Source: Corynebacterium tuberculostearicum
GTDB taxonomy: Bacteria; Actinomycetota; Actinomycetes; Mycobacteriales; Mycobacteriaceae
Direction of reading: 5' to 3'
DNA length: 64,000 nt
Assembly (NCBI RefSeq): GCF_016894265.1
Contig: NZ_CP069791.1
Coordinates: forward strand, 2,294,001 to 2,358,000
Shown here: piece after piece, positions 16,814-49,071 of the stretch
Position numbering within the stretch: position 1 is the first letter of the stretch
Layout of the letters: every line of letters begins with the position of its first letter
Position numbers and translations under genes: made by a program
Notes under the pieces: model-generated
What the model was told of the DNA's origin: nothing
The model's input: only the letters and a program-made list of their open reading frames with translations
Databases searched by the model: none

Positions 16814-18592
16814 TTATTTCCTCCTGCCCTCAAAGTCCGGGGCCTTATAGGCGCGCCTGTCCGGAGCGGCCGCGCCGCGGTTAAGCTCACGTTCCGAAGG
16901 CCAGAGGATGCCATCGCCTTCTACCTCACCATCGGTGTCCCTGTCACTCTTCTCGACGTGCAGTGAGCTCATGCCGGATGAAATGGCCGGCGTTACAGAG
17001 GCGGGCCCGGCATCCAGCTCGGCGGCGCCAGTGTCCTGTGCTTCTGTAGCTTCAGCATCGGGTTCTGCCAGCTCACTACCATCCGCAGTGCTGGTGACGG
17101 GTGCGCCGGGAATCTCCACAGCGATGGGAGCCTCGCCCACCTCGGTATTCGGGGTGCGTGGAATAATGAGGCGGAAGCGAGAACCAAATCCCTCGTAACC
17201 GGTGGCATCTAGCGTGCCGCCGTGCAGGACGGCATCCTCGCGGGCGATAGCCAGGCCCAAACCGGTGCCGCCAGAATGGCGTTTGCGGGAAGAATCCGCA
17301 CGCCAGAAGCGGTTGAATACCAGCTCTTCCTGGCCAGGTTTTAAGCCTACGCCATGGTCCGTAACGGTAACGCCCACCGCAGCGTCCGTGGCTGCGACGT
17401 CTACCGCCACTGGATTGCCCTCCGAGTGGTCAATGGCATTGGCCAGAAGGTTGCGCAAGATCCGCTCAAGGCGGCGGGAATCGGCCTCGACTCCGATGCG
17501 CTCCTCCGGCAGGTTGAGCTGGACTTCCACGTCGAGCTCGCGGGCCAAATGCTCCACCTGCCCGTAGGCCGCCTCCACACACGAGCGCAGATCAATGGCT
17601 GCCGTAGACAAATCCGCCACACCAGCATCGTGGCGAGAAATCTCCAGCAAGTCCGCGAGCAATTCCTCGAAACGATCGAGCTCACTAGACATCAGGCGGG
17701 AAGCTCGCTGGGCGCCGTGCGGCAAGCTATCACTTTCGGCCTCAATCATGTCCGCGGCCATGCGCACGGTGGTCAATGGGGTGCGCAGCTCATGGGAGAC
17801 GTCAGAAGTAAACTGCCGCTGCAAATCGCCGTACTCCTCCAGCTGTGCAATTTGGGAGGAAAGCTTATCGGCCATGTTATTGAAGGATGCGGCCAAGCGA
17901 CCCATCTCATCATCGCTATCGACGGCCATGCGCTCCTTCAAATGACCCGCCGCCAAGCGCTGCGCAATGCGCGAGGCCGAGCGAATTGGCGTAATTACCT
18001 GCTGGGTGGCTAGCCAGGCAATGCCCACCAGCAACACCACGACCACTACGCCGGCCGCCGAGAGCAGGCCGCGCATCAACGCCATGGTGGATTCTTCCGA
18101 TTCCATGGACAACGCCAGGTAGACCTGCGTATGGGGAATATCGGTATCGGTAGGCGTGCCTACTAGCAAGGCGTTGTAGTGATCACCATTTTCGCGCGGA
18201 GCTGGGAAATACTGCTGCGCAATCTGGCCTTGATCCACCATTTCCCGCAGCTGATCCGGCACGGGGAAATCCTCGGGCGAAGTGGTAACAGAGCCATCCT
18301 GGTTTTCCACCACGATGACCGGTTCATAGACCGCCTGGGCATCGCCCTGTTGGGCGGAGAGCTGGCCCAAAGCAGCACGCGCAGAGTTGATGCGCACCTG
18401 GACGGAGTTAGCGGAACTGGTGGCATCGATCTGCTGTTCCACGGCCGTGCGGGCGCGCTCCAGCTCCTGTTGGGCCACGTCTTCTTTCTGGCTGACCAGG
18501 CGTTGGGTAAGCACGGACACCAGCGCGTAGGCCAAGATGATCATGACCACCGAGGAAGCGACCAAGATCATGCCAATGACGCGCGCCTGCAA
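16814..18592 (-). CDS. mtrB: Sensor histidine kinase MtrB
   Basis: Membrane sensor of the MtrAB system controlling cell-wall growth, division and osmotic response. From the TTG at 18592: TM1 (about 5-28), extracytoplasmic domain to about 170, TM2 (about 172-195), HAMP, H-box D-V-S-H-E-L-R-T-P-L, then N-box N-A-I-D-H, and ATP lid motifs D-H-G-V-G-L and S-G-G-T-G-L-G-L-A. Tail is long and acidic. The in-frame sequence upstream (18649 to 18593) encodes R-D-A-F-I-T-T-W-R-T-S, like the start of other MtrB proteins, but has no ATG, GTG or TTG; the true start may be an ATC or ATT. Confidence 0.95.
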   Translation of the reverse strand: MQARVIGMILVASSVVMIILAYALVSVLTQRLVSQKEDVAQQELERARTAVEQQIDATSSANSVQVRINSARAALGQLSAQQGDAQAVYEPVIVVENQDGSVTTSPEDFPVPDQLREMVDQGQIAQQYFPAPRENGDHYNALLVGTPTDTDIPHTQVYLALSMESEESTMALMRGLLSAAGVVVVVLLVGIAWLATQQVITPIRSASRIAQRLAAGHLKERMAVDSDDEMGRLAASFNNMADKLSSQIAQLEEYGDLQRQFTSDVSHELRTPLTTVRMAADMIEAESDSLPHGAQRASRLMSSELDRFEELLADLLEISRHDAGVADLSTAAIDLRSCVEAAYGQVEHLARELDVEVQLNLPEERIGVEADSRRLERILRNLLANAIDHSEGNPVAVDVAATDAAVGVTVTDHGVGLKPGQEELVFNRFWRADSSRKRHSGGTGLGLAIAREDAVLHGGTLDATGYEGFGSRFRLIIPRTPNTEVGEAPIAVEIPGAPVTSTADGSELAEPDAEATEAQDTGAAELDAGPASVTPAISSGMSSLHVEKSDRDTDGEVEGDGILWPSERELNRGAAAPDRRAYKAPDFEGRRK

Positions 18593-18660
18593 AGAGGTGC
18601 GCCACGTTGTAATGAAGGCGTCTCGAATGCGCCTTAGACGCTCAATGATGCCGATGGCCC

Positions 18661-19353
18661 TTACTCCCCGGCGCCGGCCTTGCCGGTCTTATACCCCACG
18701 CCGCGCACGGTCAGCACAATCTGCGGGTCTTCCGGATCGTGCTCGATCTTGGCACGCAGGCGCTGGACGTGCACGTTTACCAAGCGCGTATCAGAAGCAT
18801 TGCGATAGCCCCACACGGATTCCAACAGCGACTCACGCGTATGTACCTGGCCGGGGCGGCGCGCCATCTCCAGCAGCAGGTCAAACTCCAGCGGGGTCAG
18901 GTTCAGCTCGGTGCCATCGGTGCGGCGCACGGTATGCTCCGGCACATCAATGACAATGTCCGCAACCTCCAGGATTTCAGATTCCGCAGAATCGGTGCGG
19001 CGCAGGCGCGCACGGATGCGGGCGATGGGCTCCTTGGGCTTGAATGGCTTGGTGATGTAATCATCCGCGCCGGATTCAAGGCCAAGGACCACATCAACCG
19101 TATCGGTTTTGGCGGTCAGCATAACGATGGGCACGGAGGATTCACGGCGAATGGCACGGCAAATATCTACGCCATTCATGCCCGGGAGCATGAGGTCCAG
19201 CAGGATGAGGTCCGGCTCGTGCTGCTCAAAGGCAGGCACGGCGTCATTGCCGTCCATGACCGGAATGGGCTTGAGTCCCTCGGACTCGAGCACAATGGTC
19301 AGCATCTCTGAGATAGCCGGATCGTCATCGACAACCAAAATCTTGGGCGCCAC
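18661..19353 (-). CDS. mtrA: Response regulator MtrA
   Basis: OmpR/PhoB-type regulator, 230 residues. Receiver domain 1-120 with acidic pocket D-D-D, phospho-acceptor Asp in L-I-L-L-D-L-M-L-P-G-M (about 53), T in M-L-T-A-K and Lys in T-K-P-F. Winged helix 130-225 with R-L-V-N-V-H-V-Q-R-L-R-A-K-I-E and V-R-G-V-G-Y. MtrA controls wall-hydrolase and osmoregulation genes. It follows tmk by 3 bp and precedes mtrB. Confidence 0.97.
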   Translation of the reverse strand: MAPKILVVDDDPAISEMLTIVLESEGLKPIPVMDGNDAVPAFEQHEPDLILLDLMLPGMNGVDICRAIRRESSVPIVMLTAKTDTVDVVLGLESGADDYITKPFKPKEPIARIRARLRRTDSAESEILEVADIVIDVPEHTVRRTDGTELNLTPLEFDLLLEMARRPGQVHTRESLLESVWGYRNASDTRLVNVHVQRLRAKIEHDPEDPQIVLTVRGVGYKTGKAGAGE

Positions 19354-41139: not shown

Positions 41140-42456
41140 ATGTCTCACACGACTGCGAATGCGCCCGCTTCACCAGCCAGCCCACCCACCACTGGCGGTG
41201 CAGGTACTTCACCCAGCGGCCAGGTGACCACTAATAAGGCCGTCAATAGCCAATGGACCATCACGCTCTTCGGCACCGCCGTGGGTGCAGGCATCCTCTT
41301 CCTGCCGATTTCGGCCGGCAGCTTCGGCTTCATCCCGCTACTGGTGGCTACCCTGCTCATCTTCCCAATGACCTACCTGGCCCACCGCGCGTTTTCTTGG
41401 ATCATCAGCTATTCCCCGCTACACGGCGAAGATGTCCTCGCGGTACTCACTCACTTCTTCGGCCGCGGCAATGGCATCATCCTGGCAATCATCTACTGGT
41501 TCACCATCTTCCCGGTGGTGCTCATCTACGGCGTATCGATTACGAATACGGTCGATAGCTTCATCGTCAACCAGCTGGGCGGCCCGGAAATCTCCCGCTA
41601 CATCCTGGCGCCACTGTGCGTGGGCCTCATGACACTCGCGCTCGCCTTTGGCAACGCCATCATGCTCAAGATTGCCCAGTTCGTGGTCTACCCGCTCATC
41701 GTGGCGCTCGCAGCGGTATCGCTCTACCTCATCCCGCAATGGGACTTGGGCTCCTTCCTGGAAGCCGGCGACCACAGCGCCGGCGGCGTCCTCAAGGCCA
41801 TCATCCTCATCCTTCCAGTATTGGTCTTCTCCTTCTCCTTCGTTGCCGCCATCTCCCAGTTCTCCCTGGGCATGGAGAAGGAATACGGCGCGGACCACCA
41901 CGCGCAGTCCGATAAAGTCATCCGCAACTCCGCCATCCTGCTGACCATCTTCACCATGTTCTTCGTCTGGTCCTGCGCCCTGGCCATGGGCGCGGACGGC
42001 ATGCAGGAGGCTAATGACAAGAACCTGCCGGTACTCTCCTACTTCGCCAACGAAACCGGCACCCAGTTTATGGCCTACATGGCGCCCATTGTCGTTATTT
42101 GCGCGGTGGCCTCCTCCTACTTCGGCCACGCCCTTGGCACCATCGAGGGCACCCAGTACCTCTTCAACCTGGGCGCGCCAAAGGCCACGAAGAAGATGTC
42201 TACGCGCACGCTCGACCTGTGGACCTACCTCTTCATCTTTGTTTCAACCTCCCTGGTAGGTATTTTCAACCCCTCCATCCTGGATATGATTTCCGTCGTG
42301 GGCGGTGTCTTCTTCGCCTTCATGACCTACCTGCTACCCATCTGGGTCATCTACCGCGTGGAGGCACTGGCACGGTTCCGGGGCAACAAGACCAACTTCT
42401 TCGTGGCGATCATGGGTCTTATCGTGCTCTTCGCCACCATCTGGGGAATGTTCTAA
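41140..42456 (+). CDS. Amino-acid permease, HAAAP/SdaC-type (serine or threonine)
   Basis: 438 residues from ATG 41140 with SD GGAGG 9 bases before (the ATG at 41131 is too close to the SD). About eleven membrane helices; the start W-T-I-T-L-F-G-T-A-V-G-A-G-I-L-F-L-P-I is the hydroxy/aromatic amino acid permease signature, and the middle F-V-A-A-I-S-Q-F-S segment fits SdaC/TdcC rather than tryptophan permeases. Probably imports serine/threonine with protons. A ThrE-type exporter lies 3 kb away. Confidence 0.87.
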   Translation: MSHTTANAPASPASPPTTGGAGTSPSGQVTTNKAVNSQWTITLFGTAVGAGILFLPISAGSFGFIPLLVATLLIFPMTYLAHRAFSWIISYSPLHGEDVLAVLTHFFGRGNGIILAIIYWFTIFPVVLIYGVSITNTVDSFIVNQLGGPEISRYILAPLCVGLMTLALAFGNAIMLKIAQFVVYPLIVALAAVSLYLIPQWDLGSFLEAGDHSAGGVLKAIILILPVLVFSFSFVAAISQFSLGMEKEYGADHHAQSDKVIRNSAILLTIFTMFFVWSCALAMGADGMQEANDKNLPVLSYFANETGTQFMAYMAPIVVICAVASSYFGHALGTIEGTQYLFNLGAPKATKKMSTRTLDLWTYLFIFVSTSLVGIFNPSILDMISVVGGVFFAFMTYLLPIWVIYRVEALARFRGNKTNFFVAIMGLIVLFATIWGMF

Positions 42457-42516
42457 TAATTCCACAAAAACATGGTTCGACAAGGCCTTTTCCTCTCTGG
42501 CAGGGTGGGAGACATC

Positions 42517-42807
42517 ATGTCAGAACAGGAAAAGGATCCCGACCTAAAGATTAAGCTCGGGCAGAACAACGAAATCAAAATTAAAAACAAGTACGAGACG
42601 TTTTCCATCGCCAATGACATCGCCATCTCTGTGGTCTTCATCCTTGGCTCAGTGCTGACACTGGCCGGCATGTCAATGGTCGCCACCGTCTTCTACCTTC
42701 TCGGCAGCCTGGGCATGGCAGCCCGCCCAGCTATCCGCTTGAAGCGGCGCACGCACCTGCAACGCATTGGAGCGGATGCCAATACCGCCGAAAGCTACGA
42801 CTACTAG
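42517..42807 (+). CDS. YrhK-domain small membrane protein
   Basis: 96 residues from ATG 42517, SD GGGAG. A polar N-terminus (D-L-K-I-K-L-G-Q-N-N-E-I-K-I-K-N-K-Y-E) precedes two membrane helices (about 35-55 and 58-75) and R-P-A-I-R-L-K-R-R-T-H-L. The pattern N-x-Y-E-x-x-S-I-x-N-D-I plus G-S-x-x-x-x-x-R-P-x-I-R is that of YrhK-like proteins, function unknown. It follows the permease by 60 bp and precedes small RNA copy 1. Confidence 0.75.
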   Translation: MSEQEKDPDLKIKLGQNNEIKIKNKYETFSIANDIAISVVFILGSVLTLAGMSMVATVFYLLGSLGMAARPAIRLKRRTHLQRIGADANTAESYDY

Positions 42808-42909
42808 GCGCAATGGGCAGACGCGGCTAACAGTAAACTTTCAGCAACTCGCAGCGACCTATCAGGCGCAACCCATTGCAGTAGCAGCCCCGTACCCCAT
42901 ACTTAAATC

Positions 42910-43058
42910 ATGCGTTTGAGAGAGCGCATACGAGAGAGATAGAGAGAACCCCTCAGTTTCCAGAGGGCGGCTTTAAGCCGATACATGGGAACACCTTGTA
43001 GAGAGAGACGCCTGCGGCCCTCGGCTCCTTTTAGGTTCCGAGGGCCGCAGGCGTTTTA
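42910..43058 (+). ncRNA. Small RNA, family copy 1, with own terminator
   Basis: About 150 bases after a CCCCATACT promoter-like box. Order: hairpin P1 ATGCGTT/AGCGCAT (42910-42929); unpaired AGAGAGATAGAGAGAACC; P2 CCCTC/GAGGG (42950-42967) with loop AGTTTCCA; P3 CGGCT/AGCCG (42968-42980); P4 ACATGG/CCTTGT (one mismatch, 42983-42999) whose GGGAAC can pair with GTTTCC of the P2 loop; then a 16-bp terminator stem (43009-43024 with 43038-43053) and TTTTA. No ORF. It follows the yrhK gene, so it may also come from that 3' end. Confidence 0.75.
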
Positions 43059-43073
43059 CACGGCTCCACGGTA

Positions 43074-44393
43074 CTACTCGTGCAGCTTATTTTTCTTCGA
43101 TGCGAAGAGAACTGCGATGCCGGTCACCAGCGCCGCGGCCACCAAATAGAAGGCGGGGGCGAGCTGCAGGCCCGTGACGTCAATAAGCCACGTGGCAATC
43201 ATCGGTGCGGTACCGCCAAATACAGCGTTGGCGGTATTAAACGTCAACGCGAAACCGGACAGGCGCACGTGGGTGGGGAATTGTTCGGAAAGGAAGGAGG
43301 GCAGGACGCCGTCGTTAAGCGCCAGCACGCCGCCCAAGCAGACCTGAATGATAATGACAAGGAAGAGCCCGGCGCCATCGAGAAGCATGAAGGCCGGAAT
43401 GATGGTCGCGCCCATGAAGGCGGCCGCGCACAGCATCGTCGTGCGGCGACCAAGACGGTCCGAAAGCATGCCGGTGAGCAGGGCAAAGCCCACATAGAAT
43501 GCGGACGCCACCGAGGACGCGATAAATGCCGGCGTCGCGACCATGCCCAACTCCTCCGACAGGTAAGTGGGCAGGTAAGTCAAAATGACGTAGAAGCCAA
43601 TGGCGTTGAGCACCGCGCCCGCAAAGGCAATGGCTAGGGCCTTGGGGTACTTCAGAACCTCGCGCAGCGGGGACTCCTCCGGCTCATCCTGGTCCTCAAA
43701 GTGGGAGGACTCTTCCGTGTTGCGGCGAATCCACAGGCCGTATAGACCCAAAGGCAGCGCAATCAGGAATGGCACACGCCAACCCCAGGAATCCAGGGCG
43801 GTATCATCAAGGACTCCAGTCAGCAGCGCCGCAATGAGCGAGCCCAAGAGCAAGCCCGAGGCCGTCGCGGAGGGCACCACCGCCGAATAGATGCCACGCT
43901 TGCCGGCTGGGGCAATCTCAGCCAGGTGCGTGGCCGCGCCCGCATACTCGCCGGCTGCGGAAAAGCCCTGCACCATGCGGCACAGCAATAGCAAGATGGA
44001 GGCGGCAAAGCCTATGGTGGAATAGCCCGGCAGGAAACCGATGCACGCAGTTGCCACCGACATCATCACAATAGACACCGTCAGCGTATGGATGCGCCCG
44101 TATTTATCACCAAAGTGACCCCACACGATGCCGCCCAAGGGCCGCACTAGGAACGACAACGCGAAGAGCGCAAACGTCATAATCAGCGCGCGGCGGCCTT
44201 CCATCTCCGGAAAGAACACACGGGAGATAATCGCGGACATATAGATATAGGCCGCATAGTCGAACCACTCGATGAAGGTGCCAATAAACGCCGCCTTAAT
44301 GGCCGAGCGATGCTGGCGCCTGGTTTCTTCCGCATCCTCTACCTGCGCCGGCACAACGTCCTTGGCTGGGGGTTGGGCTGTGAGAGGAGACAT
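43074..44393 (-). CDS. MFS transporter, metabolite:H+ symporter (MHS) family
   Basis: 439 residues, SD GAGG 8 bases before ATG 44393. Twelve helices; MHS features are the N-terminal F-I-G-T-F-I-E-W-F-D-Y-A-A-Y and the loop 2-3 motif G-H-F-G-D-K-Y-G-R (about 93-101), and S-D-R-L-G-R-R between helices 8 and 9. Relatives carry proline/betaine, shikimate, citrate or alpha-ketoglutarate; the substrate here cannot be told. Bounded on both sides by small RNA copies 1 and 2. Confidence 0.9.
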   Translation of the reverse strand: MSPLTAQPPAKDVVPAQVEDAEETRRQHRSAIKAAFIGTFIEWFDYAAYIYMSAIISRVFFPEMEGRRALIMTFALFALSFLVRPLGGIVWGHFGDKYGRIHTLTVSIVMMSVATACIGFLPGYSTIGFAASILLLLCRMVQGFSAAGEYAGAATHLAEIAPAGKRGIYSAVVPSATASGLLLGSLIAALLTGVLDDTALDSWGWRVPFLIALPLGLYGLWIRRNTEESSHFEDQDEPEESPLREVLKYPKALAIAFAGAVLNAIGFYVILTYLPTYLSEELGMVATPAFIASSVASAFYVGFALLTGMLSDRLGRRTTMLCAAAFMGATIIPAFMLLDGAGLFLVIIIQVCLGGVLALNDGVLPSFLSEQFPTHVRLSGFALTFNTANAVFGGTAPMIATWLIDVTGLQLAPAFYLVAAALVTGIAVLFASKKNKLHE

Positions 44394-44630
44394 GCTCCTC
44401 ACCTCGATTCTGTAGCTCTACAAGCAGGTGAAACGGCGCAGCCTGACTGCGCGCATATCTTCCACCCTACAGAAACAAACTATGTTCTACGTCACTTTCA
44501 CGCGCCAATGTTGCACATCTCCACCCCAGTCCTGCTTTCCGACGCCCTCCCCACCCCATTCCCAGCCACTAACAGCAACCCAACAGCCGGACCCCATGGC
44601 CGCTACAGCCCAGTGCCCCATACTGAGATT

Positions 44631-44770
44631 GTGCGTTTGAGAGAGCGCATATGAGAGAGATAGAGAGAACCCCTGCAGTTTCCACAGGGCGGCAGATGCC
44701 GATACATGGAAACGACATGAGAGACGCCCGTGGCCTCCAGCTCCGAAAGGAACTGGGGCCACGGGCGTTT
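44631..44770 (+). ncRNA. Small RNA, family copy 2, with own terminator
   Basis: About 140 bases, same architecture as copy 1: P1 GTGCGTT/AGCGCAT (44631-44650), the same purine 18-mer, P2 CCCTG/CAGGG (44671-44689) with loop CAGTTTCCA, P3 CGGC/GCCG (44690-44701), P4 CATG/CATG (44705-44719) with GGAAAC able to pair with GTTTCC, then a different terminator stem (44725-44767) and TTT. P2 shows a compensatory C-G to G-C change against copy 1. Preceded by the same CCCCATACT box. It is divergent from the MHS gene, so it needs its own promoter. The rest of 44394-44790 shows no gene. Confidence 0.78.
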
Positions 44771-44790
44771 CCCTAGCTAGAGTCTAGGCA

Positions 44791-46101
44791 TCATGCGGAA
44801 GAAGGCCGTTGCGGAAGCTTTTTATCAAAATCAATTAGGCGACCAAAGGCCCAATCCTTATCAGTAAGCAAGCGAGAAAACACCAAACCGGCACCAATAG
44901 ATCCAACTACCATCATTCCAGTTGCCACATTGGCCAACGCTTGATCCATCTGACCATCGTTCAAATAAAACACCGCCCGGAACATTGTCACCCCTGGGAT
45001 CATAATCACCGCGGCCGGAACGGTGGTTGTAATACGAGGAAGACGCGCCCTTTTAGAAGCTACTGCCCCCAGCAACCCGATGATTAATCCACCCACAAAG
45101 GCTGCAAAGAAAATGGTTGTTCCCGCGTGAATTAGAATCAAACGAAGCTCATTTGCCACGGTTCCAACGCACGCCGCTACTAAGACCATGCGGCGAGAAG
45201 AGTTAAAAAGAAAAGCAAACCCAGCAATGCCCAGAAAACTTGCCAGCGGCGCCAACAGAAACCATTGCATATCCTGCGCAGGTGCAGGTGGGTCAGGACT
45301 AAGTTTTGTCAGCCAGCTAACCATAGAGACCGTGAAAGCCGCCGTGAATATGACGGTAAAGGCGTACCCCAATCTGACAATCCCCGCATCAAGATCAAAT
45401 CGCGCTATGTCGATCAAAGCAGAGAAAAGTGGAAACCCGGGAATCAGGAATAAAACGGCCGCCACAAAACCCGAGGACAGTTCACTGGGTTCCACCGAGC
45501 CTATAGCCCCGAAAAATTCCGTCAACAAGAAGAAAACTATGCTTGCCGTCGCACCACCAGCAATCACTCCTCCAATTTGATGAACGTGACGGTGGAGAAC
45601 TGTATAACGAACAAACTGGCCTGCAAACGCCGCCAAAGCAACCAACCCCACTGCTTCCAGCGGGAAAAAATTAAGATACGCAAACGCCGCACATGCGATC
45701 GCGGCAGCGAAAGAAAGAGTTAGACCGCCCCAGCGCTTTTTGACATTATGCTCGATAGTATCCAGCATCGCCGCTAATTCCTGAGCGGTGATCCCTGCGT
45801 AGAGGCGATTGTGGGTTAAATCTTCCAAGGCTTCAATCCGAGAGGCATCAACTGCAGGCGAATGTTGCCGAGCAATGACCGTCCGGAAGTATTCGCCGCG
45901 GTGAAACGTACAGGTAATCTGCGTCAGACCCACTGTGGCATCTAGATGGTCAAACCCCAATGCTCGCGCACTCCGTTTCATCCCTCTAAGTACGCGATAA
46001 CCAGAGGTGCCGGCACCCATTAGGAGCATTCCCACCCGCAATACAACGTCCGCCTCGACACCCATTTGCCGATGCATCTCTGGATCAAATTGTTGTGCCA
46101 T
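44791..46101 (-). CDS. Threonine/serine exporter family protein (ThrE-like)
   Basis: 436 residues from ATG 46101, SD GAGG 7 bases before. Cytoplasmic N-terminal DUF1212-type domain (about 1-135: L-L-M-G-A-G-T-S-G-Y-R-V and T-F-H-R-G-E-Y) and about ten membrane helices including a second ThrE_2-like half, as in C. glutamicum ThrE, but with a shorter tail. Codons and composition are AT-richer than in the neighbours, which hints at acquisition. Export of threonine, serine or a related solute is inferred. Confidence 0.85.
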   Translation of the reverse strand: MAQQFDPEMHRQMGVEADVVLRVGMLLMGAGTSGYRVLRGMKRSARALGFDHLDATVGLTQITCTFHRGEYFRTVIARQHSPAVDASRIEALEDLTHNRLYAGITAQELAAMLDTIEHNVKKRWGGLTLSFAAAIACAAFAYLNFFPLEAVGLVALAAFAGQFVRYTVLHRHVHQIGGVIAGGATASIVFFLLTEFFGAIGSVEPSELSSGFVAAVLFLIPGFPLFSALIDIARFDLDAGIVRLGYAFTVIFTAAFTVSMVSWLTKLSPDPPAPAQDMQWFLLAPLASFLGIAGFAFLFNSSRRMVLVAACVGTVANELRLILIHAGTTIFFAAFVGGLIIGLLGAVASKRARLPRITTTVPAAVIMIPGVTMFRAVFYLNDGQMDQALANVATGMMVVGSIGAGLVFSRLLTDKDWAFGRLIDFDKKLPQRPSSA

Positions 46102-46352
46102 CTCTCCTCCTCTGACACTGCTCCTGGCGCACAATTAAAGACTTGTCGACCCCAACCCGATAGCGCGCTTGTAGTTTTCCTAGAATCTTACGCAAAAGAA
46201 GCCTCTTGTGAATCAGGCTCATCGATCCAAAAGCCTCCACCTTGATACCCGTAAGTTGATTGAGCTATTTTTTATCCTCTGCCAAATGATTGCCACTATA
46301 TTCACAGGCAAATACCAGACCTATGGCAGCCTAGCGCGTTATCTTTAATTTA

Positions 46353-46440
46353 CGTGTTCGAGAGAACGCAAGAGAGATAGAGAGAACCAGTTCCAGCGCC
46401 CTGTGGCCCCAAGCGAGGCCCGGGCGTTGGAGCTGTTTTA
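46353..46440 (+). ncRNA. Small RNA, family copy 3 (short form)
   Basis: P1 GTGTTC/GAACGC with GAGA loop (46354-46369), the shared AGAGAGATAGAGAGAACC (46371-46388), then directly a 13-bp terminator stem (46389-46401 with 46421-46433, two wobble pairs) and TTTTA. P2-P4 of the other copies are missing. It lies between divergent thrE and convergent amidohydrolase genes. The surrounding 46102-46612 holds no gene; a GGAAGG-type repeat follows at 46462. Confidence 0.65.
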
Positions 46441-46612
46441 GGGGTCTGCAGGTTGGGGCGTGGGGGAAGGAGAAGGCGTCGGAAAGCGGTGCATGGCTCA
46501 AATTCGCGGTTATAGATCCTACGGGCTACCCCCGCCACCTCATACAGCGCGCATGCCAAAAGGAATGGCCACACACCCTATTGGAGCCGTGCGGCCGAAT
46601 GCTGCGCTTCGG

Positions 46613-47830
46613 TTAGCTGTTTCCTAGGTAACTCATCGCAGCGGCGATAAGGGCTTCGGTGCCGGTGCGCAGAGTGGGCTGGAGCAGCGGAGCGAAGTGC
46701 GGACTGTGGTTGGGGACATCCTTTTCTTCTTCGCGGCCGGAAAATACCCAAAAGCAGTAGGGAACGCCGAAAGCGCGGGCGATGGTGGAAAAATCTTCCG
46801 AGGCGGTGAGGGGCTCGGCATCAAGGACGCGGTCGGTGCCGAAGTAGGACACAAAGGCTTCCTTAAGGCGTTCCGTAGTGCCCTCATCATTGCTGGTAAG
46901 CGGGTAGGAATCGTGATAGCTGAACTCGGCCGGCTGCGGGCTGCCGGCAGCCTGACACTCGGCATTGACAATGCGCTCGATGGCGCCGGTGATTTTATCG
47001 CGTACCTGCTCGCTATAGGCGCGCACATTGATTTTCAGGTTGGCCTCGAAGGGGATGATATTGGCCTTCGAACCGGCGTTGATGGCTCCCACGGTCAGCA
47101 CGCCGGATTCGGATGGGTTGAGTTCGCGGGAGATGACCGTCTGTAAACGCATGACGATGGCGCTGGCCAGTACCACGGGGTCAACGCTGAGGTGCGGCAT
47201 GGAGCCGTGCGAGCCTTGACCATAAACCTTGACGTCCATACTTACCGCGGTGGACATGAATGGGCCGGAGGCCAGCGCCACGGTGCCGGCGGGAAAGTTG
47301 CTGGCAAAGACGTGTTGGCCAAGTACTACGTCGGGCGTGGCGACCTTGTCCACAAGTCCGTCATCCACCATGGATTGGGCACCGGCGGCAATCTCCTCGC
47401 CCGGTTGGAAAATTAGCTGTAGGGTGCCGGACCACTGGTCGGTGGCCTGCGCCATGAGCGCACCCATGCCCAGCAGGCTGGCGACATGGGAATCGTGGCC
47501 GCAGGCGTGCATGACGGGGACCGTGTTTCCTTCCTGATCAACGGCGGTATCGGTCGAGGCGTAATCCAGGCCGGTGTCCTCCTTAACCGGTAGGCCATCG
47601 AAATCCGCGCGCAGCATGACGGTTGGCCCGGCACCGTTTTCCAAGACACCGACCACGCCGCCGCCTACTTCAATTTGGTAAAAGCCAAGGTCGGAAAGCT
47701 TGTCCTTGGTAATGCCCAGCGTGCGCTCTTCCTGCATGGATAGCTCCGGGTGCTGGTGCAGATCCTTATACAGCGGCTCCTGCCACACTTTGACGGAGTC
47801 ATAGTTGCTGCAAACGGTAGGGACAGACAT
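46613..47830 (-). CDS. M20 amidohydrolase, N-acyl-amino-acid type (AgaA-like)
   Basis: 405 residues. Metal-dependent hydrolase: H-A-C-G-H-D-S-H near 110, catalytic Glu in F-Q-P-G-E-E near 143, further ligands in G-Q-H-V-F and the late S-P-H-F-A-P. The N-terminal L-H-Q-H-P-E-L-S-M-Q-E-E and the middle Q-T-V-I-S-R-E resemble AgaA, the acyl-glutamine aminoacylase of axillary corynebacteria that frees odour acids. Substrate here unproven; peptide or N-acyl amino acid cleavage is likely. ATG 47830, SD GGAGG. Confidence 0.9.
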   Translation of the reverse strand: MSVPTVCSNYDSVKVWQEPLYKDLHQHPELSMQEERTLGITKDKLSDLGFYQIEVGGGVVGVLENGAGPTVMLRADFDGLPVKEDTGLDYASTDTAVDQEGNTVPVMHACGHDSHVASLLGMGALMAQATDQWSGTLQLIFQPGEEIAAGAQSMVDDGLVDKVATPDVVLGQHVFASNFPAGTVALASGPFMSTAVSMDVKVYGQGSHGSMPHLSVDPVVLASAIVMRLQTVISRELNPSESGVLTVGAINAGSKANIIPFEANLKINVRAYSEQVRDKITGAIERIVNAECQAAGSPQPAEFSYHDSYPLTSNDEGTTERLKEAFVSYFGTDRVLDAEPLTASEDFSTIARAFGVPYCFWVFSGREEEKDVPNHSPHFAPLLQPTLRTGTEALIAAAMSYLGNS

Positions 47831-48090: not shown

Positions 48091-49071
48091 GTGACTTTTC
48101 AGGAAGACTCTCTCGGTGCCGGTGGCGCCGGCACTACAACCGCATCTCCCACACGCGCGGAAAGCCCCGGTGATTCCGCGGCGCTTGTCCGCAAGGCCAA
48201 GCGCAACCGACACAAGGAATGGCTGCTGGCAGCAGCACTGCTTGCTCCCAACCTGATCCTGCTGGCCGTATTTACCTACCGGCCCCTGCTGGACAATATC
48301 CGCCTCTCCTTTTTCAATTGGAATATCTCCAGCCCCACCTCCACCTTCGTGGGCTTGGATAACTATGTGGAGTGGTTTAGCCGCGATGACACTAAGACCA
48401 TCGTGCTCAACACCCTGGTTTTTACCTTCTTCGCGGTGATTGGCTCCATGGTTATCGGCCTAGCGCTGGCCTTGCTGCTCAACCAGAACATTAAGGGCCG
48501 CAACTTTGCGCGCTCGGTGGTCTTTGCTCCCTATGCTATTTCCGGCGCGGCCATTGGCATTGCCTTCCAATTCGTCTTCGACCCCAACTTTGGCCTCATC
48601 CAGGAAATACTGGGCTGGTTCGGTGTGGACTCCCCCAACTTCTACGCAGTACCGGGCTGGGCCATGTTCATGGTGACCTTTACCTTTGTGTGGAAGAACC
48701 TGGGCTATACCTTTGTCATCTATTTGGCAGCACTACAGGGCCTGGATAAGGAATTAGATGAAGCTGCCGCTATCGACGGCACCGGACGCTGGCGCAAGTT
48801 CTGGCGCGTGACCATGCCGCAGCTGCGCAATACCACCTTCTTCTTGTCCATTACGGTGCTGCTCAACTCCGTGCAGGTCTTCGACATCATCAACGTCATG
48901 ACCCGTGGCGGCCCGCAGGGCAATGGCACGCAGACGCTGGTCTTCCAGATCTACAACGAGACCTTCGTCAACTTCCGCGCCGGCTACGGTGCGACTGCCG
49001 CCACCATCTTGTTCCTCATCCTGCTCATCATCACCCTGATCCAGGTCCGCATCATGGATAAGCGAGGTTAA
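48091..49071 (+). CDS. ugpA: ABC transporter permease UgpA (glycerol-3-phosphate type)
   Basis: 326 residues, GTG start, TAGATT 6 bases before it (possible leaderless start). Six helices after a polar N-terminus; the EAA loop reads E-A-A-A-I-D-G-T-G-R-W-R-K-F near residue 228. First of four genes in the order A-E-B-C with short gaps, the order of C. glutamicum ugpAEBC for glycerol-3-phosphate uptake. The related sugar systems differ in gene order. Confidence 0.9.
   Translation: MTFQEDSLGAGGAGTTTASPTRAESPGDSAALVRKAKRNRHKEWLLAAALLAPNLILLAVFTYRPLLDNIRLSFFNWNISSPTSTFVGLDNYVEWFSRDDTKTIVLNTLVFTFFAVIGSMVIGLALALLLNQNIKGRNFARSVVFAPYAISGAAIGIAFQFVFDPNFGLIQEILGWFGVDSPNFYAVPGWAMFMVTFTFVWKNLGYTFVIYLAALQGLDKELDEAAAIDGTGRWRKFWRVTMPQLRNTTFFLSITVLLNSVQVFDIINVMTRGGPQGNGTQTLVFQIYNETFVNFRAGYGATAATILFLILLIITLIQVRIMDKRG

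Follow-up and report, generated by a model that had tools for sequence, protein, structure and literature searches.

Three intergenic gaps in the genome of Corynebacterium tuberculostearicum raise the question of which RNA they encode, what switches it on and what it acts on. They lie in the window analysed here, a stretch of 64,000 nucleotides (assembly GCF_016894265.1, contig NZ_CP069791.1, positions 2,294,001 to 2,358,000 of the forward strand), and direct reading finds in them three related stand-alone RNA genes on the plus strand, at about 42910-43056 (copy 1), 44631-44771 (copy 2) and 46352-46440 (copy 3). Each has tandem CAG repeats, a -10 hexamer, a hairpin (P1), a GA box and a terminator of its own. 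We propose from sequence, with a probability of about 45%, that they belong to a multicopy family of trans-acting small RNAs (sRNAs) driven by the response regulator PhoP and acting through the GA box.

Copies in the window and in the genome

The original prediction described three related stand-alone copies on the plus strand, each ending in its own, differing terminator. Direct reading and folding confirmed this: the terminator stems of copies 1-3 differ in sequence, and the three copies fold with z = -8.65, -8.99 and -6.91, respectively, with 0 of 200 shuffles as good for each. The stretch AGAGAGATAGAGAGAACC is identical in copies 1-3 and, at C1:1239163, in a fourth copy located outside the window at C1:1239141. 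With up to two mismatches it occurs at only four places in the 2.43-Mb genome, all of them RNA copies. As a control, the reversed pattern was searched as well and matched three places in the genome (sites not listed), which the near symmetry of GA repeats probably explains. Copies 1 and 2 have a pseudoknot domain that is missing from copy 3, a short form. About 17 bases separate the end of the copy 1 terminator from the stop codon of a convergent gene, and about 19 bases that of copy 2; both terminators probably function on either strand.

Distribution of the family

The copies almost certainly represent a real sRNA family that is not listed in Rfam. That the family could not be recognised from its sequence is borne out: Rfam 15 gave no match in the window at the gathering cut-off, and a search of 11 loci with diverse copies returned only transfer RNAs (tRNAs) and one thiamine pyrophosphate (TPP) riboswitch, none of them at the RNA genes. 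When 42400-46700 was searched at E <= 10, all nine matches were below cut-off, the best being RybB at the terminator of copy 1 (22.2 bits against a cut-off of 40). No published description of the RNA family was found in the open-licence literature, so that its absence from print is unproven.

Two covariance models were searched against 242 genomes of the genus, R1 for P1 and the GA box (15 seed copies) and R2 for the full form (seeded with 17 long copies, all from other genomes than the window's). At E <= 0.01, R1 had strong matches in 35 genomes and weak ones in 12, 47 in all; of the weak ones, the three that were read (L127-L129) were judged non-members by eye. R2 at E <= 0.001 matched 35 genomes, identical to those with strong R1 matches, with one to seven matches in each, and recovered copies 1, 2 and 4 of the window's genome. 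Thus, neither Rfam nor the Corynebacterium genomes speak against the predicted family. In an even sample of the order searched under strict filters, R1 at E <= 0.001 matched 7 of 397 genomes: the window's own genome strongly, and one more member of the genus and five others marginally. Of 43 stretches with the motif pattern in named genomes, 41 are from Corynebacterium and two from unrelated organisms (L150, L166), and no exact match was found in viral contigs. Carriers include C. tuberculostearicum, C. kefirresidentii, C. striatum, C. minutissimum, C. aurimucosum, C. macginleyi and C. phoceense.

Among 129 hits collected, nine at 17.2 bits or less were dropped, and removal of the non-members L127, L128 and L129 and of the degenerate L095:4261 reduced the remaining 120 to 116. 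Two copies look degenerate: L052:5585-5622 has lost the pseudoknot and the terminator, and the GA box of L095:4261-4299 has decayed. Moreover, five genomes (L101, L104, L107, L110, L113) have a distinct short form near a full copy, whose P1 carries TTGGAGAG and which has no CAG triple at the usual place.

Conserved core and pseudoknot

P1, whose loop reads GAGAG, and a GA box that hardly varies make up the conserved core. In most copies an H-type pseudoknot with covarying strands is present as well, and behind it, as a rule, a second GA box; this second box is missing from some long-form copies (e.g. L080, L085). The motif GAGA recurs in unpaired parts, that is, in the P1 loop, GA box 1, the P3 loop of the long form and GA box 2, while the stems vary.

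The strands of the pseudoknot change together. The alignment of all forms together (A4) places the pseudoknot wrongly, so its strands were extracted from the copies and their partners permuted. The loop of P2 pairs with a strand 3' of P3 in the 37 copies that were selected, most weakly in L115 and L119. Across 11 clusters of unlike loops the mean pairing of own strands was 16.55 against 11.16 when permuted, with 0 of 20,000 permutations as good. A first control still included related loops, and there 10% of the cross pairs were as high as the mean of the own pairs. RNAalifold on 11 copies also gave P1, the pseudoknot strands as a helix, and P3, with 5 of 19 pairs changed on both sides. In 17 copies of the long form, 93.3% of the cells in P1, P2 and P3 are paired. 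When the structure was tested on the same 17 sequences from which it had been derived, the covariation score was 0.236 against 0.105 in shuffles (0/500 as high), 19 cells were changed on both sides against 5.5 (0/500 as many), and sliding the pairing partners abolished the signal. Doubly changed pairs in this test (five against 3.7 in shuffles, 109/500 as many) were not above chance.

By folding and family comparison, copy 1 has P1 at 42910-42929, GA box 1 at 42932-42950, P2 at 42950-42954 with 42963-42967, P3 at 42968-42980, pseudoknot strands at 42956-42962 and 42986-42992, GA box 2 at about 42999-43009 and the terminator at 43006-43056. Similarly, copy 2, the other full form, has P1 at 44631-44650, GA box 1 at 44653-44671, P2 at 44671-44675 with 44685-44689, P3 at 44690-44701, pseudoknot strands at 44678-44684 and 44707-44713 and the terminator at about 44721-44771. 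Folding alone places P1 (46353-46370), the GA box (46371-46388) and the terminator (about 46389-46437) of the short copy 3.

Upstream repeats and the candidate regulator

The upstream regions carry phased repeats. In 44 nonredundant upstreams (less than 75% alike) drawn from the 116, CAG pairs number 47 at spacing 11, 15 at 10, 26 at 21, 27 at 22 and 23 at 33, and mostly one to eight at each other spacing; the repeat unit is ACTnnCAG(G/C) plus two bases. Among 97 distinct copies pooled from all genomes, 96 have a -10 hexamer from a list that we compiled, its end 6-8 bases ahead of the T of P1 (CATACT in 71, CATAAT in 17 and four rarer forms in the rest). Upstream of copy 1, the CAGs stand at 42831, 42842, 42852 and 42863 (repeats at 42828-42866; spacing 11, 10, 11), followed by CATACT at 42898-42903 and a predicted start at 42910. 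For copy 2, they stand at 44563, 44573 and 44584 (44560-44587), with CATACT at 44619-44624 and a predicted start at 44631. Those of copy 3 are at 46305, 46316 and 46327 (46302-46330; spacing 11, 11), the first half-site being TTCACAGG, with TATCTT at 46340-46345 and a predicted start at about 46352. The box CCCCATACT, which had been noted earlier upstream of copies 1 and 2, is indeed there and contains CATACT.

The repeat unit resembles the M. tuberculosis PhoP repeat AC(T/G)(T/G)(T/G)YARC and the lipF site, where the 2-base gap is our own reading (excerpts of PMC3413638), and, when reversed, the C. glutamicum PhoR box CCTGTGAAaatCCTGTGAA (excerpts of PMC3353115). In comparison with base shuffles, the reversed PhoR half-site at period 11 scored z 11.6 (two repeats) and 12.2 (three) on the sRNA upstreams, and lower, often still positive, at other periods; the half-site written backwards gave 4.6-4.7 and the unreversed one about 0. 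The PhoP consensus scored z 9.3 at period 11 and 8.1 at period 10. PhoP-type direct repeats are therefore present at the sRNA promoters. The window's genome encodes four OmpR-type regulators, one of which is the PhoP orthologue (328 bits to M. tuberculosis PhoP, against 181 bits for the next different regulator) and another RegX3; the remaining two we take to be MtrA, encoded in the window, and MprA. Of the 18 RNA-bearing genomes tried, all carry a CAG pair at spacing 11 on the sense strand before phoP/phoR, and 17 carry one at spacing 22; before pstS, the sense strand has such a pair in 0/18 and the antisense strand in 2/18. In C. glutamicum, PhoR is described as autoregulated (excerpts of PMC3353115). 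We consider it probable that PhoP controls transcription of the sRNAs, as predicted from these sites: the response regulator of the stress-sensing PhoP/PhoR pair would bind the 11-bp tandem repeats upstream of the promoter and activate transcription.

Several observations weigh against PhoP. The phoR upstreams are individually weak with the sRNA-derived matrix (p 0.020-0.228), though this test is conservative, because the control windows also hold sRNA promoters (top 24.4 bits). The published PhoP consensus is near background at phoR (z 1.5), with 3.1 at pstS and 9.3 at the sRNAs. In addition, a strong tandem repeat of the sRNA type precedes an extracytoplasmic-function (ECF) sigma gene (L178, about 1500-1520; C1:2021442 in the window's genome), and therefore another regulator is possible. 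That the same family is driven by another response regulator, such as MprA, seems quite unlikely to us. In its favour, the repeat before the ECF sigma gene scores 23.3 bits (p 0.005) and this gene is presumably sigE-like, but the upstream of the gene that we take for mprA lacks repeats (5.7 bits, p 0.27). In C. glutamicum, gel shift identified sigE as a target of MprA (excerpts of PMC12113857), but the MprA motif of that species is TKTTAAGAAM.

A phosphate-regulon reading, prompted by the ugpAEB-like operon at 48.1-51.3 kb of the window, is not claimed, because ugpA lacks sense CAG pairs at the spacings concerned and the repeats before pstS are of another type. The ugpA upstream scores 12.6 bits (p 0.042); its sense strand has no CAG pair with a spacing of 10-12 or 21-22, its antisense strand one with a spacing of 11. 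The pstS upstreams in many of the 18 genomes (L183-L200) carry GTTCACC/GTTAACC-type repeats, which we take for RegX3 boxes. The strict tandem-repeat pattern also matches the window's genome at 1363387 and 1181382; no sRNA-like sequence was seen at 1363387, which lies between genes named by eye as ftsY-like and antiporter-like.

Candidate target

We tentatively predict that the GA box pairs at translation starts: left unpaired in the RNA, it might bind UC-rich stretches there and block them. With up to one mismatch, TCTCTATCTCTC occurs in the window's genome at the four RNA genes and at four other places, assigned by eye: near a tRNA-like sequence, in codons 4-7 of a lipoprotein-like gene, inside a transporter-like gene, and in the leader of a gene with a staphylococcal-nuclease (SNase) domain by Pfam. 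The last site lies directly before the Shine-Dalgarno sequence, and the duplex predicted with the GA box spans 16 bp, one of them G-U, at -27.3 kcal/mol. Among 467 crude background starts none was as strong (mean -7.1, 5% at -12.8, 1% at -16.2 kcal/mol; the strongest, at -20.9, overlaps an RNA gene), and neither was any of 400 shuffled GA boxes. The SNase-domain gene is the best candidate target in this genome, and a candidate only.

A search for SNase orthologues (E <= 1e-15) in 30 genomes found them in ten: six of the 18 that carry the RNA and four of the 12 presumed to lack it, because neither an exact motif nor a strong R1 match was listed for these. Leaders of five whole orthologues from genomes with the RNA gave -27.3, -16.1, -13.0, -14.4 and -20.8 kcal/mol, and two from genomes without it gave -3.7 and -9.6. 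The three other matches (-8.1, -9.9 and -5.0 kcal/mol) begin at query residue 7, 15 or 203, so that the sequence upstream of them may not be the leader. The fraction of shuffled GA boxes that bound as strongly was 0, 0.033, 0.175, 0.290 and 0.010 for the five leaders, and 0.185 for the lipoprotein site; shuffled boxes also bind SNase leaders because these are pyrimidine-rich. Both the small share of RNA-bearing genomes with an orthologue and the two leaders of five that are no better than with shuffled GA boxes (0.175, 0.290) count against pairing at this gene. The target is thus the weakest step, because the orthologues give mixed support.

Mode of action and comparison with known RNAs

The original prediction had offered, among other roles, a trans-acting RNA or a protein sponge; we infer a role of this kind as well, and can now put names to a probable upstream regulator and a candidate target. 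As a sponge, the chief rival reading, the RNA would titrate an RNA-binding protein with its repeated GAGA motifs, the copies together setting the dose. The recurrence of unpaired GAGA among varying stems, the one to seven copies per genome and the few near-complementary sites in the window's genome (four besides the RNA genes, with at most one mismatch) agree with this, but the 16-bp match beside the Shine-Dalgarno sequence would be left unexplained and we know of no protein that binds such RNA in this bacterial group, which makes a sponge rather doubtful. It is unlikely, too, that the PhoP-driven multicopy RNA serves as a scaffold whose pseudoknot, between two GA boxes, presents GAGA to an undescribed, Csr-like actinobacterial RNA-binding protein, with base-pairing as a second layer. 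We hardly expect a leaderless micro-open reading frame starting at the predicted transcription start: of 97 distinct copies, 86 have ATG or GTG at the base preceding the T of P1 and 34 read [M/V]RLRER[I/M]RER, but the reading length ranges from 2 to 59 residues, indels in P1 shift the frame, the reading is partly missing in the short form, and its first base also belongs to a P1 pair. A functionless mobile or repetitive element would account for several copies at different places of a genome, but is highly improbable in view of the phased promoters, the covarying pseudoknot, the separate terminators and the lack of exact motif matches in viral contigs. If, as we propose, the sRNAs are driven by PhoP and pair through the GA box, the pseudoknot might serve as a scaffold, holding the GA boxes open or protecting the RNA.

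Little is understood of how Actinobacteria regulate genes post-transcriptionally, and a compact multicopy RNA with a well supported pseudoknot, a fixed unpaired motif and a candidate regulator would offer a tractable system in common skin corynebacteria. CsrB and RsmY RNAs bind and titrate an RNA-binding protein via repeated short purine motifs. A repeated, unpaired, short purine motif and multiple copies are also found here, but the motif is GAGA instead of GGA, the core is a pseudoknot, and the likeness to CsrA binders is one of motif and copy number. An sRNA family under PhoP would, if true, parallel the mycobacterial link between PhoP and Mcr7. Mcr7 of M. tuberculosis is a PhoP-dependent non-coding RNA of about 350 bases, proposed to pair with the ribosome-binding site of the tatC mRNA (excerpts of PMC4038636). 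Control of a non-coding RNA by PhoP and pairing at a ribosome-binding site would, as proposed here, be common to the two, whereas by description our RNAs are shorter, with about 90-147 bases, and in the order sample the P1/GA-box model matched strongly only within the genus. 6C RNA is an actinobacterial sRNA of about 100 bases that occurs in Corynebacterium, and is similar in these respects, but it is named for stem-loops with C runs (excerpts of PMC4046766) and our RNAs have no Rfam match.

Genomic neighbourhood

Copy 1 is convergent with a major facilitator superfamily transporter gene (43074-44393, minus strand; Pfam MFS_1), and copy 2 with a ThrE-type exporter gene (44791-46101, minus strand; Pfam ThrE and ThrE_2). 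All genes between the copies are on the minus strand, no same-strand gene lies directly downstream of a copy in the window before the ugpA-like gene at 48091, and in all genomes the downstream neighbour, called with a crude open reading frame caller, is on the opposite strand for 95 of the 114 copies that have one. This agrees with the earlier view that the copies are not riboswitch leaders of a neighbour. On the other hand, the idea that they are a duplicated regulator of the transporters between them found no support: these transporters are of different kinds, copies elsewhere adjoin other genes, and the complementarity search in the window's genome points elsewhere.

The P1 starts in the window (42911, 44632 and 46353) are spaced by exactly 1721 bases, twice. 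Close relatives have a spacing of 1721/1721 (G247) or 1720-1722 and others one of 1732-1749, probably because the genes have similar lengths. Elsewhere in the window, 16814-19353 holds genes for a histidine kinase and an OmpR-type regulator, a pair that we take to resemble MtrB-MtrA. Some 160 bases separate the fourth copy from the TPP riboswitch (56.2 bits, cut-off 54.3; L050:6869-6979, minus strand), which is upstream of it and on the other strand.

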